From contig JASBVM010000009.1 of assembly GCA_029961055.1 (NCBI GenBank), positions 124,001-188,000 of the forward strand: a stretch of 64,000 nt of DNA. Direction: 5' to 3'. The notes below the pieces were generated by a model. It saw only the letters and a list, made by a program, of their open reading frames with translations. It was not told the DNA's origin and did no database searches. Below, piece after piece: positions 5,747 to 10,385 of this stretch. Source of the DNA: Bacillota bacterium (GTDB taxonomy: Bacteria > Bacillota > Sulfobacillia > JAIMAT01). Positions within the stretch are counted from its first letter, which is position 1; every line of letters begins with the position of its first letter. The translations under genes were made by a program, and so were the position numbers.

Positions 5747-7387
5747 TCAGGGCAGTGCCTGCCGGATCACGCCCCACCAGTCCGGCGTCTCATAGCCGAA
5801 CTTCCAGATGGCAGCACCCGCCAACCCGTATTGTCGCACCAGGCCCAGCTTGGCCGCCAGGCCGGCGTTGTCGGTGAACCAGACCTCGTGCCGGACGCCG
5901 CTGCTATCGGTGTAGAAGAACTGCGTCTCGCCCAGGTCGGGATGCGGAATGGGCTGGACGCCGTACTTCGCGATCAGGTTGCGCGCGCCTTCAATGTACC
6001 AGGCCCTGGTGGGCTGGCCCGGCGCCCAGTCGTCGGCATAGGCCGGGATGCCGAGAAGGATCTTCTGCGCCGGTGCCTGCTGGACGGCCCAGGCGAGCCC
6101 CTGCTGCATCCACGGAAGCGAGCCGACGGGTCCGGGAGCGCTGCCGGGGTAATGCTGGTCGTAGGTCATGATGATCAGGTAGTCGGCTACCTTGCCCAGC
6201 GCAGCATAGTCGAAGTCGTGACCCCAGCTGTTGGCGCTGGCTGCGTCGCGCCAGGGCAGATCGATCGTCAGGAGCAGGTTCTGGGCGTGCAGCCGCTGGG
6301 CCAGCGTCGTCGCGAACTGGGTGAAGAGATCCCGGTCGGCGTTCTGCAGGTACTCGAAGTCGATGTTGACGCCGCTGTAGCCGCGGCTGGCGACGGTCAG
6401 GATGTTCTGGATCAGCCGCTGCTGTGCGGCCGGGTCGGCCAACACCCGGTGGATGCCGGGACCGCCGAACAGGCTCACCCGGAAGAACAACGGCTTCTGG
6501 TGGTCGCGCGCCCACTGGAAGAGCGCCGGGCTGTCGCTGCCCACGAGCGTGCCGGCTCCACCCGCCGAAGTATCCACCGTGTATCCCATGGTGATCACCC
6601 AGTTGATCCGGTCGGCACCCGCGTCGAGCGAGTCCAGATCGCCGGAGGACGCCCAGCCGGTCAGGATCGTTCCCGGTGTGGGCGCCGGTTTGGGCGGCGG
6701 CTGGACGCCCAGGAGCTGGAAGCGTACGTCCATGAAGCGGACCAGCATCGTGACCGTCTCCGCCCGGGTGGTGGCGTCGAAGGGCGCGTAGAGCGCCAGC
6801 TGGCCCGGCGCCGAGGGCCTGCCGGTGATGATGTTCTTCTTCACCGCGGCGCTGGCCTCGTTCGCCCAGGCGGGGATGGCGTCGTGATCCTGAAACTCCC
6901 AGAAGTACCGCGGCTCCGGCGTGACGCCCAGCTTCTCGAGGGCCCGGCCGAAGATGACGCCCATCTCGGCGCGGTTGAGCGCCCGGTTCGGCAGGAAGTA
7001 CCCGCCCGGATAGCCCTTGAGGACGCCCGCCTGGACCGCCGCGGCGACCAGTCCCCGATCCTCGGCGGGAATGCTGCTCCAGTCGACGAAGGGCGCCTTC
7101 TGCGGCGTCACCGGTTGGAGTTCCAGGGCCCGTGCCATCCAGACGGCGAAGGCCTCGCGCGTGGTCGCCGCGTCCGGACGGAACTTGCCGTCCTCCGGGA
7201 CGGTGAGCACGCCGGCCGACTGGGCGGCCAGGATGTAAGCCTCGGCCCAGTGCCCCCCGATGTCGGTGAAGCTCTGGGGCGACTGGGCCGAGGCGAAACC
7301 TGCCGGCGCGCCGGCCGCGAGCAGGACGGCCAGGAGCAGAACCGCCAGGGTCCGGAAGAGACCCGGTCGGTAGAGACGAACGGTCAA
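5747..7387 (-). CDS. SLH-domain glycoside hydrolase family 18 protein (cell-wall associated)
   Basis: 546 residues. A signal peptide (hydrophobic run about 11-34, ending AGFASAQS) precedes three S-layer homology modules at about residues 38-225 (FTDIGGHWAEAYI, VDWSSIPAEDRGLVAAAVQ, DHDAIPAWANEASAAVKKN). Residues about 240-546 form a GH18 TIM barrel: INWVITMGYTVD, GYSGVNIDFEYL with the catalytic Glu of the DxxDxDxE-type motif, YLIIMTYDQHYPG, and GAAIWKFGYETPDWW. Such proteins are wall-bound N-acetylglucosaminidases or chitinase-like enzymes, often of the YaaH/spore-cortex type. SLH modules bind pyruvylated secondary wall polymer; the pyruvyl transferase CsaB is encoded at 26039. Single gene, with a long upstream region divergent from the flavin module. 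Confidence 0.9.
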   Translation of the reverse strand: MTVRLYRPGLFRTLAVLLLAVLLAAGAPAGFASAQSPQSFTDIGGHWAEAYILAAQSAGVLTVPEDGKFRPDAATTREAFAVWMARALELQPVTPQKAPFVDWSSIPAEDRGLVAAAVQAGVLKGYPGGYFLPNRALNRAEMGVIFGRALEKLGVTPEPRYFWEFQDHDAIPAWANEASAAVKKNIITGRPSAPGQLALYAPFDATTRAETVTMLVRFMDVRFQLLGVQPPPKPAPTPGTILTGWASSGDLDSLDAGADRINWVITMGYTVDTSAGGAGTLVGSDSPALFQWARDHQKPLFFRVSLFGGPGIHRVLADPAAQQRLIQNILTVASRGYSGVNIDFEYLQNADRDLFTQFATTLAQRLHAQNLLLTIDLPWRDAASANSWGHDFDYAALGKVADYLIIMTYDQHYPGSAPGPVGSLPWMQQGLAWAVQQAPAQKILLGIPAYADDWAPGQPTRAWYIEGARNLIAKYGVQPIPHPDLGETQFFYTDSSGVRHEVWFTDNAGLAAKLGLVRQYGLAGAAIWKFGYETPDWWGVIRQALP

Positions 7388-7761: not shown

Positions 7762-8220
7762 ATGGCACGAGTGGGACGGACGCTGGCCGTACTGGGGGCC
7801 GTGGGCGCCTTCGTCGCCGGGGGGGCCGCCGCGCTGCGAGACGCCCCGGGGGTGGTCCAGGCCGCTCCCGGCACCGCTTCCTCGGGCATGTCGACGGCGC
7901 AGCTGAAGGCGCTCCAGGAGAGCCTGAGCCGGCAGGTGGCGGCCCAGGAGCAGACGCTCTCCTCGCTCAACGACCGGGAGCGGCAGCTGGAGCAGGCGCT
8001 GGCCGCGGCCCAGCAGCAGCTCCGGCAGGAGCAGGCGCTCCTCGCCCGGGCGCGCCAGGCCCGGCTCCAGGCCCAGCAGGCCGCGCAGGCGGCGCCGCGC
8101 GTGGACACGACGACCGGCGCCTCTTCCAGCCGCGGCGACGAGGGAGAGCGCGAGCACGACGGCATCTCCTCCTTCTTCGGGTCCGGGGAGGAAGAGGGCT
8201 CCGAGGGGTGGGGAGAATGA
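7762..8220 (+). CDS. Small membrane-anchored coiled-coil protein with flavinylation-like motif (first of pair)
   Basis: 152 residues, no recognised family. Residues 1-26 form a signal peptide or anchor (MARVGRTLAVLGAVGAFVAG); residues about 44-110 are a Gln/Ala/Leu-rich coiled coil; then D115-T-T-T-G-A-S121-S-S, followed by an acidic tail. D-x-x-[S/T]-G-A-[S/T] is the consensus to which ApbE attaches FMN through a phosphoester bond, with the last Ser/Thr as acceptor, so Ser121 is the predicted site. The gene overlaps the next one by ATGA, and an ApbE gene follows two genes on. Start ATG 7762 with GGGAGG upstream. No FMN_bind domain is present, which is unusual for an ApbE substrate. The function as an extracytoplasmic flavin carrier is inference. 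Confidence 0.7.
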   Translation: MARVGRTLAVLGAVGAFVAGGAAALRDAPGVVQAAPGTASSGMSTAQLKALQESLSRQVAAQEQTLSSLNDRERQLEQALAAAQQQLRQEQALLARARQARLQAQQAAQAAPRVDTTTGASSSRGDEGEREHDGISSFFGSGEEEGSEGWGE

Positions 8221-8615
8221 GCCGCCGGGCGCGGCACGCGGCGCAGCCCGGCCCGGTGACGCGGCTCGAGCTGCGCCGGAGGCGGATGGCCCGCTGGACG
8301 GCCGGATGGCTGGCGGGCGCGCTGGCGCTCTTCGGCGGAACGGTGGCCTGGGCGGCGGGCCATCCGCCGCGCCCGGCCCATCCCACCGCCGCCAGCCGCC
8401 GGGCGTCCCAGGCGGACCTTCCTCCCGAGCTCCGCCAGCTCCTCCAGCGCTCGCAGGAGCTGGACCAGCGGCTCCGCACGGCCGAGGTGCAGCTGACCGC
8501 GCTGGACCGCCGGGCCCGCGCCGCCGCGGGGCAGGCGGCCGCGCTGCCCCCGCCCCCTCCGGCGCCGAGCCTTCCGTCCATGCCGCAGGTGCAGACGACC
8601 ACGGGCGCCAGTTGA
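8217..8615 (+). CDS. Small membrane-anchored coiled-coil protein ending in TTTGAS (second of pair)
   Basis: 132 residues. A basic N-terminus (RLELRRRRMARW) precedes one membrane segment or signal sequence (about 29-49, TAGWLAGALALFGGTVAWAA); residues about 62-100 form a coiled coil (LPPELRQLLQRSQELDQRL); then a Pro-rich stretch and the C-terminal VQTTTGAS, where Ser132 is the last residue. The same six residues TTTGAS occur in the preceding protein, which suggests common processing by the ApbE protein encoded 22 bases downstream. The Asp three positions before the second Thr is Gln here, so it fits the flavinylation consensus less fully. It overlaps the preceding gene by ATGA (start 8217). 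An alternative ATG at 8208 would add three residues. Confidence 0.68.
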   Translation: MSRRARHAAQPGPVTRLELRRRRMARWTAGWLAGALALFGGTVAWAAGHPPRPAHPTAASRRASQADLPPELRQLLQRSQELDQRLRTAEVQLTALDRRARAAAGQAAALPPPPPAPSLPSMPQVQTTTGAS

Positions 8616-8637
8616 CCGGGCCGAGGAAGCGATCCTC

Positions 8638-9588
8638 ATGGGCGAGTGGCACGGCCGCGCCATGGCGACCGAGATCGAGATCCGCACCGTCGAGCCGCCG
8701 GGGGCCCCTGCGGGGGTGGAACGCCTGGACGAGGCGGCGCGCCGGGCGCTGGCCCGGTTCGCCGAGGTGGAACGGGTCTGCACCCGCTTCCAGCCCGACT
8801 CGCCGCTGATGCGGTTCAACCGGGGCGGCGACGGCTGGCAGGAGGTCGACCCGCTCCTCTACCGGGTGGTCGCCCTGGCGGCGCGGGCCCGGCGACGGAC
8901 CGGCGGCCGCTTCGACCCGCGCGTGCTGGAGGCGCTGGTCAGGATCGGCTACGACCGGACGCTGCCGGTCGGGCGGGGAACCCTTCGCCTCCCCGCTCCC
9001 CAGGGCCGGGCACGGCCGCTGCGAGACTCCGGCTGGCTCCAGCGCCGGCCGCGACGGCGCGCGCTCCGGCTGCGGGGGGCGCCGCTCGACCTGGGCGGGA
9101 TCGGCAAGGGCTACGCGGTCCGGTTGGCCGCGCGGGAGATGGCGCCCGTCTCGGGCAACTTCCTGGTCAACGCCGGGGGCGATCTCGTCTGCCGGGGCCC
9201 CGGACCGGAAGGGGACGGGTGGCGCGTGGGGGTGGAGGATCCGCGCGGGGGCGCGGCCCCGGTGGCGGTGCTGGCGGTCCGGGACCGGGCGGTCTGCACC
9301 TCCTCCGTCCGCCGCCGGCGCTGGCTGGCCGGTGACCGGCCGGTCCACCACCTGATCGACCCGCGGACCGGCGAGCCGGCCGCCTCCGGGCTCCTGGCGG
9401 TGACGGTGGTGGGCGCGGATCCGGCCTGGTGCGAGGTCTGGTCCAAGGCGCTCTTCGTGGAGGGGGCGACGGGGGTGCGGGAGCTGGCGGAGCGCGAGCG
9501 ACTGGCCGCCCTCTGGGTGACGGAGGAAGAGGAGCTGGGCTGGAGCAGCCGGATGGCGCCCTTCCTCATCTGGAGGGCCGCGGCATGA
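8638..9588 (+). CDS. apbE: FAD:protein FMN transferase (ApbE family)
   Basis: Transfers FMN from FAD to a Ser/Thr of target proteins outside the cytoplasmic membrane. 316 residues, usual length. Seen: HGRAMATEIEIRTV near the N-terminus (ApbE mgT.f.i), RFAEVERVCTRFQPDSPLMRFN, LDLGGIGKGYAVRLAA, NAGGDLVCRG, VHHLIDPRTGEPA and the metal-site region near VVGADPAWCEVWSKAL. No obvious signal peptide or lipobox is present, so either it is exported another way or its start is unusual; ATG 8638 has GAGGAA about 10 bases upstream. It follows the two TTTGAS proteins and overlaps the ferric-reductase-like gene by ATGA, so all four form one operon and the small proteins are its likely substrates. Confidence 0.9.
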   Translation: MGEWHGRAMATEIEIRTVEPPGAPAGVERLDEAARRALARFAEVERVCTRFQPDSPLMRFNRGGDGWQEVDPLLYRVVALAARARRRTGGRFDPRVLEALVRIGYDRTLPVGRGTLRLPAPQGRARPLRDSGWLQRRPRRRALRLRGAPLDLGGIGKGYAVRLAAREMAPVSGNFLVNAGGDLVCRGPGPEGDGWRVGVEDPRGGAAPVAVLAVRDRAVCTSSVRRRRWLAGDRPVHHLIDPRTGEPAASGLLAVTVVGADPAWCEVWSKALFVEGATGVRELAERERLAALWVTEEEELGWSSRMAPFLIWRAAA

Positions 9589-10385
9589 GCGCGGGACGGC
9601 AGGGCGCGGTGGAGGCCGAGCGGAACGAGGGCGGCCTCTCGATCCCGGGGTTCTTCCTCGCGCTGGGCGCGGGCTGGCTGGCCGGCTACCTGCTCGGGAC
9701 GCTGGCCGCGCCCTTTTTCGGCAGCCGGACCTTTCCCTGGGTGGTGGCGCGGGCAGCCGGGATGAGCGCCTATGTGCTGCTGGAGCTGGCCGTCCTCGCC
9801 GGCCTCGCGCTCTCCCACCCGTGGCGCTGGGGCCGGCGGCGCCCGTCGCCCGACTTCCTGTACCGGACGCACTCGGTCCTCTCGCTGGCAGCGCTGGCGC
9901 TGGTGGCCACCCACGCCGTCGCCCTGGCGCTGGACCCCTTCGTCCAGGTGGGCTGGCGCGGTGCGCTCCTGCCCGGGGGCGCGGTCTACCGGACGGGTCC
10001 GGTGGCGGCCGGCGTCCTGGGCGCCTACCTGGCGCTCCTGGGCGCGGTGAGCGCCGGGCTCGGCCCGGCCATGGCCCGCCGCTGGGGCCCACACCTGGGA
10101 CGGCGGCTCTGGCTCCCGCTCCACCGCGTGGTGCTCCTGGCCTGGGTGCTGGCCTGGTTCCACGGCGTCCTGGCAGGAAGCGACACCCCCGCGCTCCGCG
10201 CCTTCTACGCGGTCAGCGGCGGGCTGGTCGTCCTCCTGGCCGCCACCCGCTACCTGGCCCGCCGGCCGCAGGCGGCGGCCAGCTCGCCCCAGACGGCCAG
10301 CTGGACGGCGGAGGGGACCGTGCTCCGGGCGGATGGGTTGGGCAGGCAGGCGACGGGCAGGGGACCCCGGGAGAGCTCCAGCTGA
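9585..10385 (+). CDS. Ferric-reductase-like transmembrane haem protein
   Basis: 266 residues with about six membrane segments (about 19-41, 50-72, 89-108, 137-156, 177-195 and 205-220). Two helices each carry a pair of histidines separated by about 13 residues: HSVLSLAALALVATHAVAL and LHRVVLLAWVLAWFHGVL. This is the bis-haem pattern of the ferric reductase-like / YedZ (MsrQ) superfamily, which passes electrons across the membrane. In an operon with ApbE and two putative flavin carriers it is the obvious quinol- or haem-side partner. Start ATG 9585 overlaps apbE by ATGA. The last 45 residues are hydrophilic and their DNA lies antisense to the end of mug (136 bp convergent overlap), so the natural C-terminus may be this long only for lack of an earlier stop. 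Confidence 0.82.
   Translation: MSAGRQGAVEAERNEGGLSIPGFFLALGAGWLAGYLLGTLAAPFFGSRTFPWVVARAAGMSAYVLLELAVLAGLALSHPWRWGRRRPSPDFLYRTHSVLSLAALALVATHAVALALDPFVQVGWRGALLPGGAVYRTGPVAAGVLGAYLALLGAVSAGLGPAMARRWGPHLGRRLWLPLHRVVLLAWVLAWFHGVLAGSDTPALRAFYAVSGGLVVLLAATRYLARRPQAAASSPQTASWTAEGTVLRADGLGRQATGRGPRESSS

Follow-up and report, generated by a model that had tools for sequence, protein, structure and literature searches.

A four-gene operon of a Bacillota bacterium encodes candidate minimal flavin carriers, a signal-less ApbE, and a dihaem-type membrane protein

Introduction

How little protein is needed to carry a covalently bound flavin for electron transfer outside the cytosol is a question raised by a four-gene operon from a bacterium of the phylum Bacillota (GenBank assembly GCA_029961055.1). 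The operon lies in a stretch of 64,000 nucleotides (contig JASBVM010000009.1, positions 124,001 to 188,000), referred to below as the window, and encodes two small proteins, designated here carriers A and B, a flavin transferase (ApbE), and a six-helix membrane protein. The substrates of FmnB, the ApbE of Listeria, are lipoproteins with FMN_bind domains. An earlier interpretation of this DNA (the sequence-only reading) had pointed to TTTGAS motifs in both small proteins and proposed that they carry flavin mononucleotide (FMN), have no FMN_bind domain, and serve the membrane haem protein. Results of our analysis indicate that the operon probably encodes a minimal flavin device that moves electrons across the membrane by means of FMN tags on membrane tethers, and we assign to this reading a probability of about three in four.

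Results

The TTTGAS motifs were found in both small proteins where the sequence-only reading had placed them (D115-S121 in A and Q126-S132 at the exact C-terminus of B), and each comprises the acceptor site [ST]GA[ST]. The fit to the complete ApbE motif D-x-x-[ST]-G-A-[ST] holds in the case of A, where Asp precedes the motif [ST] by three residues, but not in the case of B, where this position is occupied by Gln, and in relatives by His, Ser, or Val. The occurrence of the motifs is far above chance. The [ST]GA[ST] site is present in the last 12 residues of B in 21 of 30 relatives, as compared with 0.87 expected from shuffled tails, and TGAS is present in A in 12 of 25 relatives, as compared with 0.74 expected from shuffles. 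Among the main-clade loci with a readable B, 23 of 28 keep [ST]GA[ST] at its C-terminus, and four of the five others (L008, L021, L022, and L024; L numbers designate the loci) have the motif in A. As a genome-wide marker, TTGA[ST] was rejected, since TTGA[S/T]-like DNA sites show no enrichment (38 vs. 116 in a reversed-pattern control). Two sites of this type are in frame in the consecutive genes just before the sole apbE, and one of the two falls right at the C-terminus of the encoded protein.

Neither A nor B contains a domain recognisable in Pfam and NCBIfam scans. Their assignment to a known family was rejected, as the weak matches were to generic coiled coils and those of the window proteins were below cut-offs. 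The FMN_bind domain (PF04205) was matched neither in A or B nor anywhere in the window's genome. The ratios of nonsynonymous to synonymous substitution rates relative to the closest relative, L002 (0.475 for A and 0.45 for B), are those of evolving coding genes and mark both as real genes. In its AlphaFold2 model, A has an anchor helix and a helix of 66 residues, while the motif and tail are disordered. The coiled coil, which the sequence-only reading had ascribed to both proteins, is predicted for A with a high predicted local distance difference test score (pLDDT), but it is not conserved across the wider family.

The ApbE of the operon is the sole ApbE of the 2.28 Mb genome, and none of the substrate families searched for in this genome, namely FMN_bind, NqrB/RnfD, DUF2271, and DUF3570, has a gene there. 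A search for FAD_binding_2 returned one full-length match and short nucleotide-binding fragments.

Relatives of the module were collected by an ApbE scan, which gave 35 loci, and by genome searches, which added further Bacillota; several loci are contigs of metagenome-assembled genomes (MAGs), and several carrier-gene starts were picked by eye. Related modules were found in Bacillota, Actinomycetota, and Chloroflexota. In most loci, one or two small genes adjoin apbE and encode a P-x-x-x-[AT]-[TSV]-[TS]-G-A-S-like motif close to the C-terminus. Such gene sets recur in at least three phyla. The pattern that would speak against the sequence-only reading, namely homologs with the coiled coil that lack both the motif and a neighbouring apbE, was not observed among the loci at apbE, the low complexity of the sequences having precluded a search away from it.

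The motif occurs in both carriers in the window and in L002, L004-L007, L012, L019, L067, L069, and L070, in B alone in L003, L009, L013, L014, L016, L017, L020, L023, L026, and L028, and in A alone in L008, L021, L024, and L022 (twice in the latter); in L010 and L015 it is present in B, while A is readable only in part. About half of the A homologs keep the helix or the acidic tail without the motif, B keeping the motif. The usual build of A includes an acidic Gly/Asp-rich tail, and B combines a basic N-terminus and an anchor with a linker that is either helical or rich in Pro and Thr. L006, whose module has both motifs, comes from Paractinoplanes durhamensis NBRC 14914, a named strain in culture. 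In L072-L074 (genomes of 6.5-7.3 Mb), a single carrier with an Asn/Ser/Asp-rich tether ends with QSRTGAS. Since the tag is borne there on a tether of this type, the coiled coil was rejected as a defining feature, and the tag and anchor are the conserved part. The core conserved across these loci has a membrane anchor at the N-terminus and the motif at or near the C-terminus, the two joined by a tether of variable type (coiled coil, Pro/Thr-rich, or Asn/Ser-rich).

Certain loci deviate from this build. Carrier A of L022 (5377-5820) contains two TGAS motifs (QAVTGASG and QSITGASG) and is possibly a double-flavin tether. The carrier of L029 (5303-5992) contains a peptidoglycan-binding domain (PF01471, 8.5e-16) between the anchor and the C-terminal tag. 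Near-identical modules of L013 and L014 come from MAGs labelled as Actinomycetes and Acidobacteriota; either of these MAGs may therefore be mis-binned, and mis-binning or recent transfer is probable. In unrelated loci, two-component genes (histidine kinase and/or response regulator) adjoin the module (L006:2958-5062, L022:7658-9007, L027:7629-8294, and L030:3767-5784).

Among small anchored proteins encoded beside divergent signal-less ApbEs, 16 of 17 end with Ser (L027, L029, L031, L032, L034, L071-L077, L079, L132, and L134-L136). Their tails are [ST]xxS-like (TRSS, TRGS, SNGS, SGGS, TRAS, THAS, and TRPS), which may indicate that GA of the motif is relaxed in divergent relatives and that the motif shrinks to little beyond the C-terminal Ser. 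This rule is only suggestive, because the reading frames were selected by eye, several of the loci are close kin, and a C-terminal Ser is also common in the neighbouring gene families (9/29 and 8/34).

The window ApbE matches PF02424 with an E-value of 3.3e-55. A tree of 79 ApbEs places the 31 carrier-linked enzymes in a single group (support 91/99). Two separate groups are formed by FMN_bind-linked ApbEs encoded in the same genomes (100/99) and by canonical enzymes with an N-terminal hydrophobic segment (99/95). In all 31 enzymes of the carrier clade, Glu replaces the Asp of the catalytic triad, and Lys replaces the Thr four residues further on, whereas Asp and Thr are present in 28 of 28 enzymes of the lipoprotein (canonical) and FMN_bind-linked groups; among the other 20 ApbEs, which are mixed, Glu/Lys prevails. 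This Thr we take to be a metal ligand in ApbE. The triad Ser and His are kept in 31/31, the GGD and HHLIDP blocks are also kept, and the replacement of Asp by Glu is a conservative change. In Vibrio cholerae ApbE, the triad is Ser241-His257-Asp285 (PMC12052999). In L018 (2851-5822, low-coverage contig), the carrier-clade apbE overlaps the end of a molybdopterin oxidoreductase gene.

The ApbEs of carrier loci have no signal peptide, and that of the window begins right at the domain; this type of ApbE is therefore probably cytosolic. The absence of a signal peptide was rejected as a trait unique to these enzymes, as the FMN_bind-linked ApbEs of the same genomes are also devoid of it. Signal-less ApbEs with an FMN_bind partner are common in actinobacteria (L119-L131), where they are mostly short, retain the canonical Asp/Thr, and group as a separate clade. 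A single ApbE accompanied by no FMN_bind gene is a feature not only of the window's genome but also of the genomes of L002, L022, L026, L027, and L029. Altogether, FMN_bind is absent in 14 of 31 carrier genomes, a count affected by genome incompleteness; in carrier genomes with FMN_bind genes, most of these genes adjoin a different ApbE from a separate group of the tree.

The membrane protein contains two His pairs, H96-x13-H110 and H180-x12-H193, all four His being invariant in 29 relatives. These spacings, HX13H and HX12H, are those of the FRD/NOX family (ferric reductase and NADPH oxidase type). The 29 relatives keep also W52, R56, G59, G73, D117, G143, W176, G198, and D200; 11 of them match PF01794 (best 2.4e-10). 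A profile search gave a weak match to the bacterial NOX-type structure 8qt6, and the structure model of the membrane protein has a pLDDT of 83.5. Outer loops 2 and 3 are better conserved than the inner loops (mean frequency of the top residue, 0.61 and 0.71 vs. 0.36 and 0.28); such conservation, in two of the three outer loops, is expected if a flavin docks outside.

A basic N-terminus before the single anchor, i.e., a positive-inside bias, was found in 26 of 30 B proteins. Together with the peptidoglycan-binding domain of the L029 carrier, it suggests that the tag is placed outside, and A and B are predicted to be type II membrane proteins with the C-terminus outside. Many B proteins have Arg pairs ahead of the anchor, which is compatible with the twin-arginine translocation (Tat) pathway but does not prove its use.

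In Actinomycetota, the membrane gene is followed, usually with an ATGA overlap, by a NuoF-like gene (PF01512, mostly with PF10589), which is present in L004-L011, L014-L016, L019, and L034. This neighbour suggests that reduced nicotinamide adenine dinucleotide (NADH) is the donor in the actinomycetotal version and that electrons flow outward. No NuoF-like gene follows the membrane gene of the window, the next gene being a convergent gene of the uracil-DNA-glycosylase (UDG) family. The window version probably draws on menaquinol or another cytosolic reductase, the quinol being proposed by analogy with MsrQ. Apart from the NuoF-like gene, the flanking genes differ among loci, and no acceptor was found from them.

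All four open reading frames had been correctly delimited by the sequence-only reading, as had the ATGA overlaps that join A to B and apbE to the membrane gene and the 22-bp gap between B and apbE (Table 1). The four genes form an isolated operon, with a divergent SLH/GH18 gene upstream (5747-7387, minus strand) and the UDG-family gene downstream. The 3' end of the membrane gene overlaps the latter by 136 bp (window 10250-10385), and this antisense gene may shape the poorly conserved C-terminal tail of the membrane protein. A scan for promoters and terminators gave nothing useful.

Table 1. Features of the operon (positions in the window)
Feature	Position	Strand	Description or basis
Carrier A gene	7762-8220	+	152 aa; N-terminal hydrophobic segment, long helix, TTTGAS motif, acidic Gly/Glu-rich tail
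Long single helix (predicted coiled coil) of carrier A, residues 45-110	7894-8091	+	AlphaFold2 model, pLDDT ~97
Candidate flavinylation motif of carrier A, D115-T-T-T-G-A-S121	8104-8124	+	Sequence; low pLDDT, predicted disordered
Carrier B gene	8217-8615	+	132 aa; Arg-rich N-terminus, membrane anchor, short helix, Pro-rich linker, terminal TTTGAS
Motif of carrier B, Q126-T-T-T-G-A-S132, very C-terminus	8592-8612	+	Sequence; kept in relatives
apbE (flavin adenine dinucleotide (FAD):protein FMN transferase)	8638-9588	+	316 aa; no signal peptide; PF02424
ApbE E266...K270: Glu for catalytic-triad Asp, Lys four residues on for Thr	9433-9447	+	31/31 in the carrier clade, 0/28 in the two other named groups
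Membrane protein gene, six-helix dihaem-type (FRD/MsrQ/NOX-like), no dehydrogenase domain	9585-10385	+	266 aa
H96, presumed inner-haem ligand (with H180, nt 10122-10124)	9870-9872	+	Invariant in 29 relatives; HX13H
Conserved outer loop, residues 117-137 (D117...VGW.GA..P130....Y135-R), candidate flavin docking site	9933-9995	+	Loop conservation
H193, presumed outer-haem ligand (with H110, nt 9912-9914)	10161-10163	+	Invariant in 29 relatives; HX12H

Discussion

The proposal that A and B are minimal FMN carriers that serve the membrane haem protein is well supported by the recurrence of the tag, apbE, and an FRD-type dihaem protein together in three phyla, and by the window's genome having its sole ApbE without any other substrate type among those searched. 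According to the mechanism we propose, ApbE would move FMN from FAD onto the last Ser of TTTGAS in A and B, and the flavin-bearing chain would be exported after flavinylation. The tag would then sit outside on a long tether, in part helical and in part disordered. The six-helix protein may hold two b haems in series and pass electrons from the inner to the outer face, where the swinging FMN would meet the conserved outer loops, take the electrons, and hand them on to a wall-located or external acceptor, which could be ferric iron, a quinone, or a secreted reductase. The cytosolic NuoF-like protein of Actinomycetota would oxidise NADH and feed the inner haem. A more specific version of this proposal, which we advance tentatively and hold at a little under even odds, is that FMN without a binding pocket sits on a bare C-terminal Ser of a largely unfolded tether, is loaded in the cytosol by the Glu/Lys type of ApbE and then exported, and that carriers of this kind form a widespread class. 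As the flavin would be loaded in the cytosol and the chain exported afterwards, no flavin exporter would be needed.

Placement of the tags on the cytosolic side or in the membrane, with A and B as scaffolds and FMN as a relay between a cytosolic donor and the inner haem, would spare a signal-less ApbE the export of its product. None of the carrier-clade ApbEs has a signal peptide, and the NuoF-like partner in Actinomycetota could in principle reduce a cytosolic FMN. However, the FMN_bind-linked ApbEs are signal-less as well, so this feature is no mark of a cytosolic carrier, while the basic N-termini of most B proteins predict an outside C-terminus, one carrier bears a peptidoglycan-binding domain, and the conservation of the membrane protein peaks at outer loops 2 and 3. 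We consider a cytosolic placement unlikely.

The uniform presence of Glu and Lys in the carrier-clade enzymes and the loss of the motif Asp from most B tails could also mean that this ApbE no longer transfers FMN but, e.g., hydrolyses FAD or engages the TTGAS tails as pseudo-substrates, A and B serving, in a structural or regulatory role, to keep the enzyme anchored at the membrane protein. The retention of the triad Ser and His and of both sequence blocks speaks against such a role. Besides, beyond the tag no fold or domain of the carriers is conserved, and the selection of the exact [ST]GA[ST] at the terminus of otherwise fast-changing tails fits a substrate better than a docking partner; an altered enzyme thus appears improbable. 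Finally, tethers rich in Ala, Thr, Ser, and Pro, with low-complexity flanks of the motif, might yield TTGAS ends by chance, or these ends might serve in sorting or proteolysis. A motif tied to one ApbE subfamily across phyla, and found in B tails so far in excess of what shuffling yields, makes an origin unrelated to flavin very improbable.

Several observations weigh against the transmembrane flavin device itself. The covalent FMN on A and B is a prediction from sequence, and the loss of Asp in B departs from the textbook motif. Since the catalytic Asp is replaced by Glu and the presumed metal ligand by Lys, the activity of ApbE cannot be assumed. With a signal-less enzyme and a tag outside, modification would have to precede export. 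The membrane protein of the window has no Pfam match, and the best Foldseek matches of its model, to the membrane domain of NOX5 (5o0t) and to STEAP (probability 0.99-1.00), have E-values of just 0.03-0.13 (best 0.033) and TM-scores of 0.43-0.53. In L025, the strict motif is present in neither carrier, and no carrier was seen beside the carrier-clade apbE on the low-coverage contig of L018.

Published findings render the proposed mechanism plausible. A terminal 7-residue D-x-x-[ST]-G-A-[ST] sequence, the flavin-tag, is all that ApbE needs for flavinylation, which is typically full (Tong et al. 2021, cited in PMC12052999), the replacement of Asp by Ala in the flavinylation motif has only a minor effect (review PMC12052999), and the cytosolic ApbE of Klebsiella pneumoniae is functional without a signal peptide, similarly to what is expected of the carrier-clade enzymes (PMC12052999). 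However, its substrate is a soluble cytoplasmic fumarate reductase and not a membrane-anchored tether. Listeria PplA, modified by FmnB, is likewise a flavinylated carrier that serves extracellular acceptors in a Gram-positive bacterium (PMC12052999, PMC9973259), but FmnB works outside the cytosol, whereas the ApbE described here is signal-less.

The module most resembles the MsrQ-like (PF01794) flavinylation clusters, in which apbE is adjacent to a gene of a six-helix dihaem FRD-type protein (Meheust et al. 2021, PMC8238504). Those clusters, found mostly in Actinobacteria, have in some cases a NuoF-like NADH partner, and a transmembrane electron flow to extracytosolic flavin was proposed for them. 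While they typically contain an FMN_bind gene, the module described here has none, and its flavin is predicted to sit on a short tag at the C-terminus of a tether. The survey dropped genes with no signal peptide and demanded one for its clusters; the module of the window, in which this feature is missing, falls outside that definition. Its filter would have missed this class. Some of the modules presented here may be among its 31 NuoF-containing clusters. In about 4% of the ApbE-encoding genomes (670), the same survey was left with no known substrate and predicted undiscovered ones; the class of A and B is a likely substrate for such orphan ApbEs, and Glu/Lys in ApbE offers a sequence marker for finding more modules of this kind.

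Substrates with no FMN_bind domain that are flavinylated at [ST]GA[ST] have been described, namely DUF2271, DUF3570, Flavodoxin_4, and FMN_red (PMC8238504; Huang et al. 2024, PMC11334425). The latter two were added by the 2024 follow-up, along with DUF4405 cytochromes, and FMN_red bears its flavinylation site on a disordered C-terminal extension (PMC11334425). Each of the four is, however, a recognised domain, with a flavin pocket in the case of Flavodoxin_4 and FMN_red, while A and B contain no recognisable domain. A carrier of the present type was not found in the accessible part of the follow-up. The remark of the sequence-only reading that no carrier of this shape had been described agrees with our literature search, largely confined to sources other than subscription papers, preprints, and supplements, in which no published description of this class was found.

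The flavin-tag is a laboratory tool, and A and B appear to be a natural use of the same principle, often without the Asp. If this is true, it becomes testable whether flavin-bearing chains can be exported, and an anchor, a tether, and a tag would be enough to build an electron carrier, which points to a very simple way of carrying electrons out of the cell, not described before, and to a natural counterpart of the flavin-tag.

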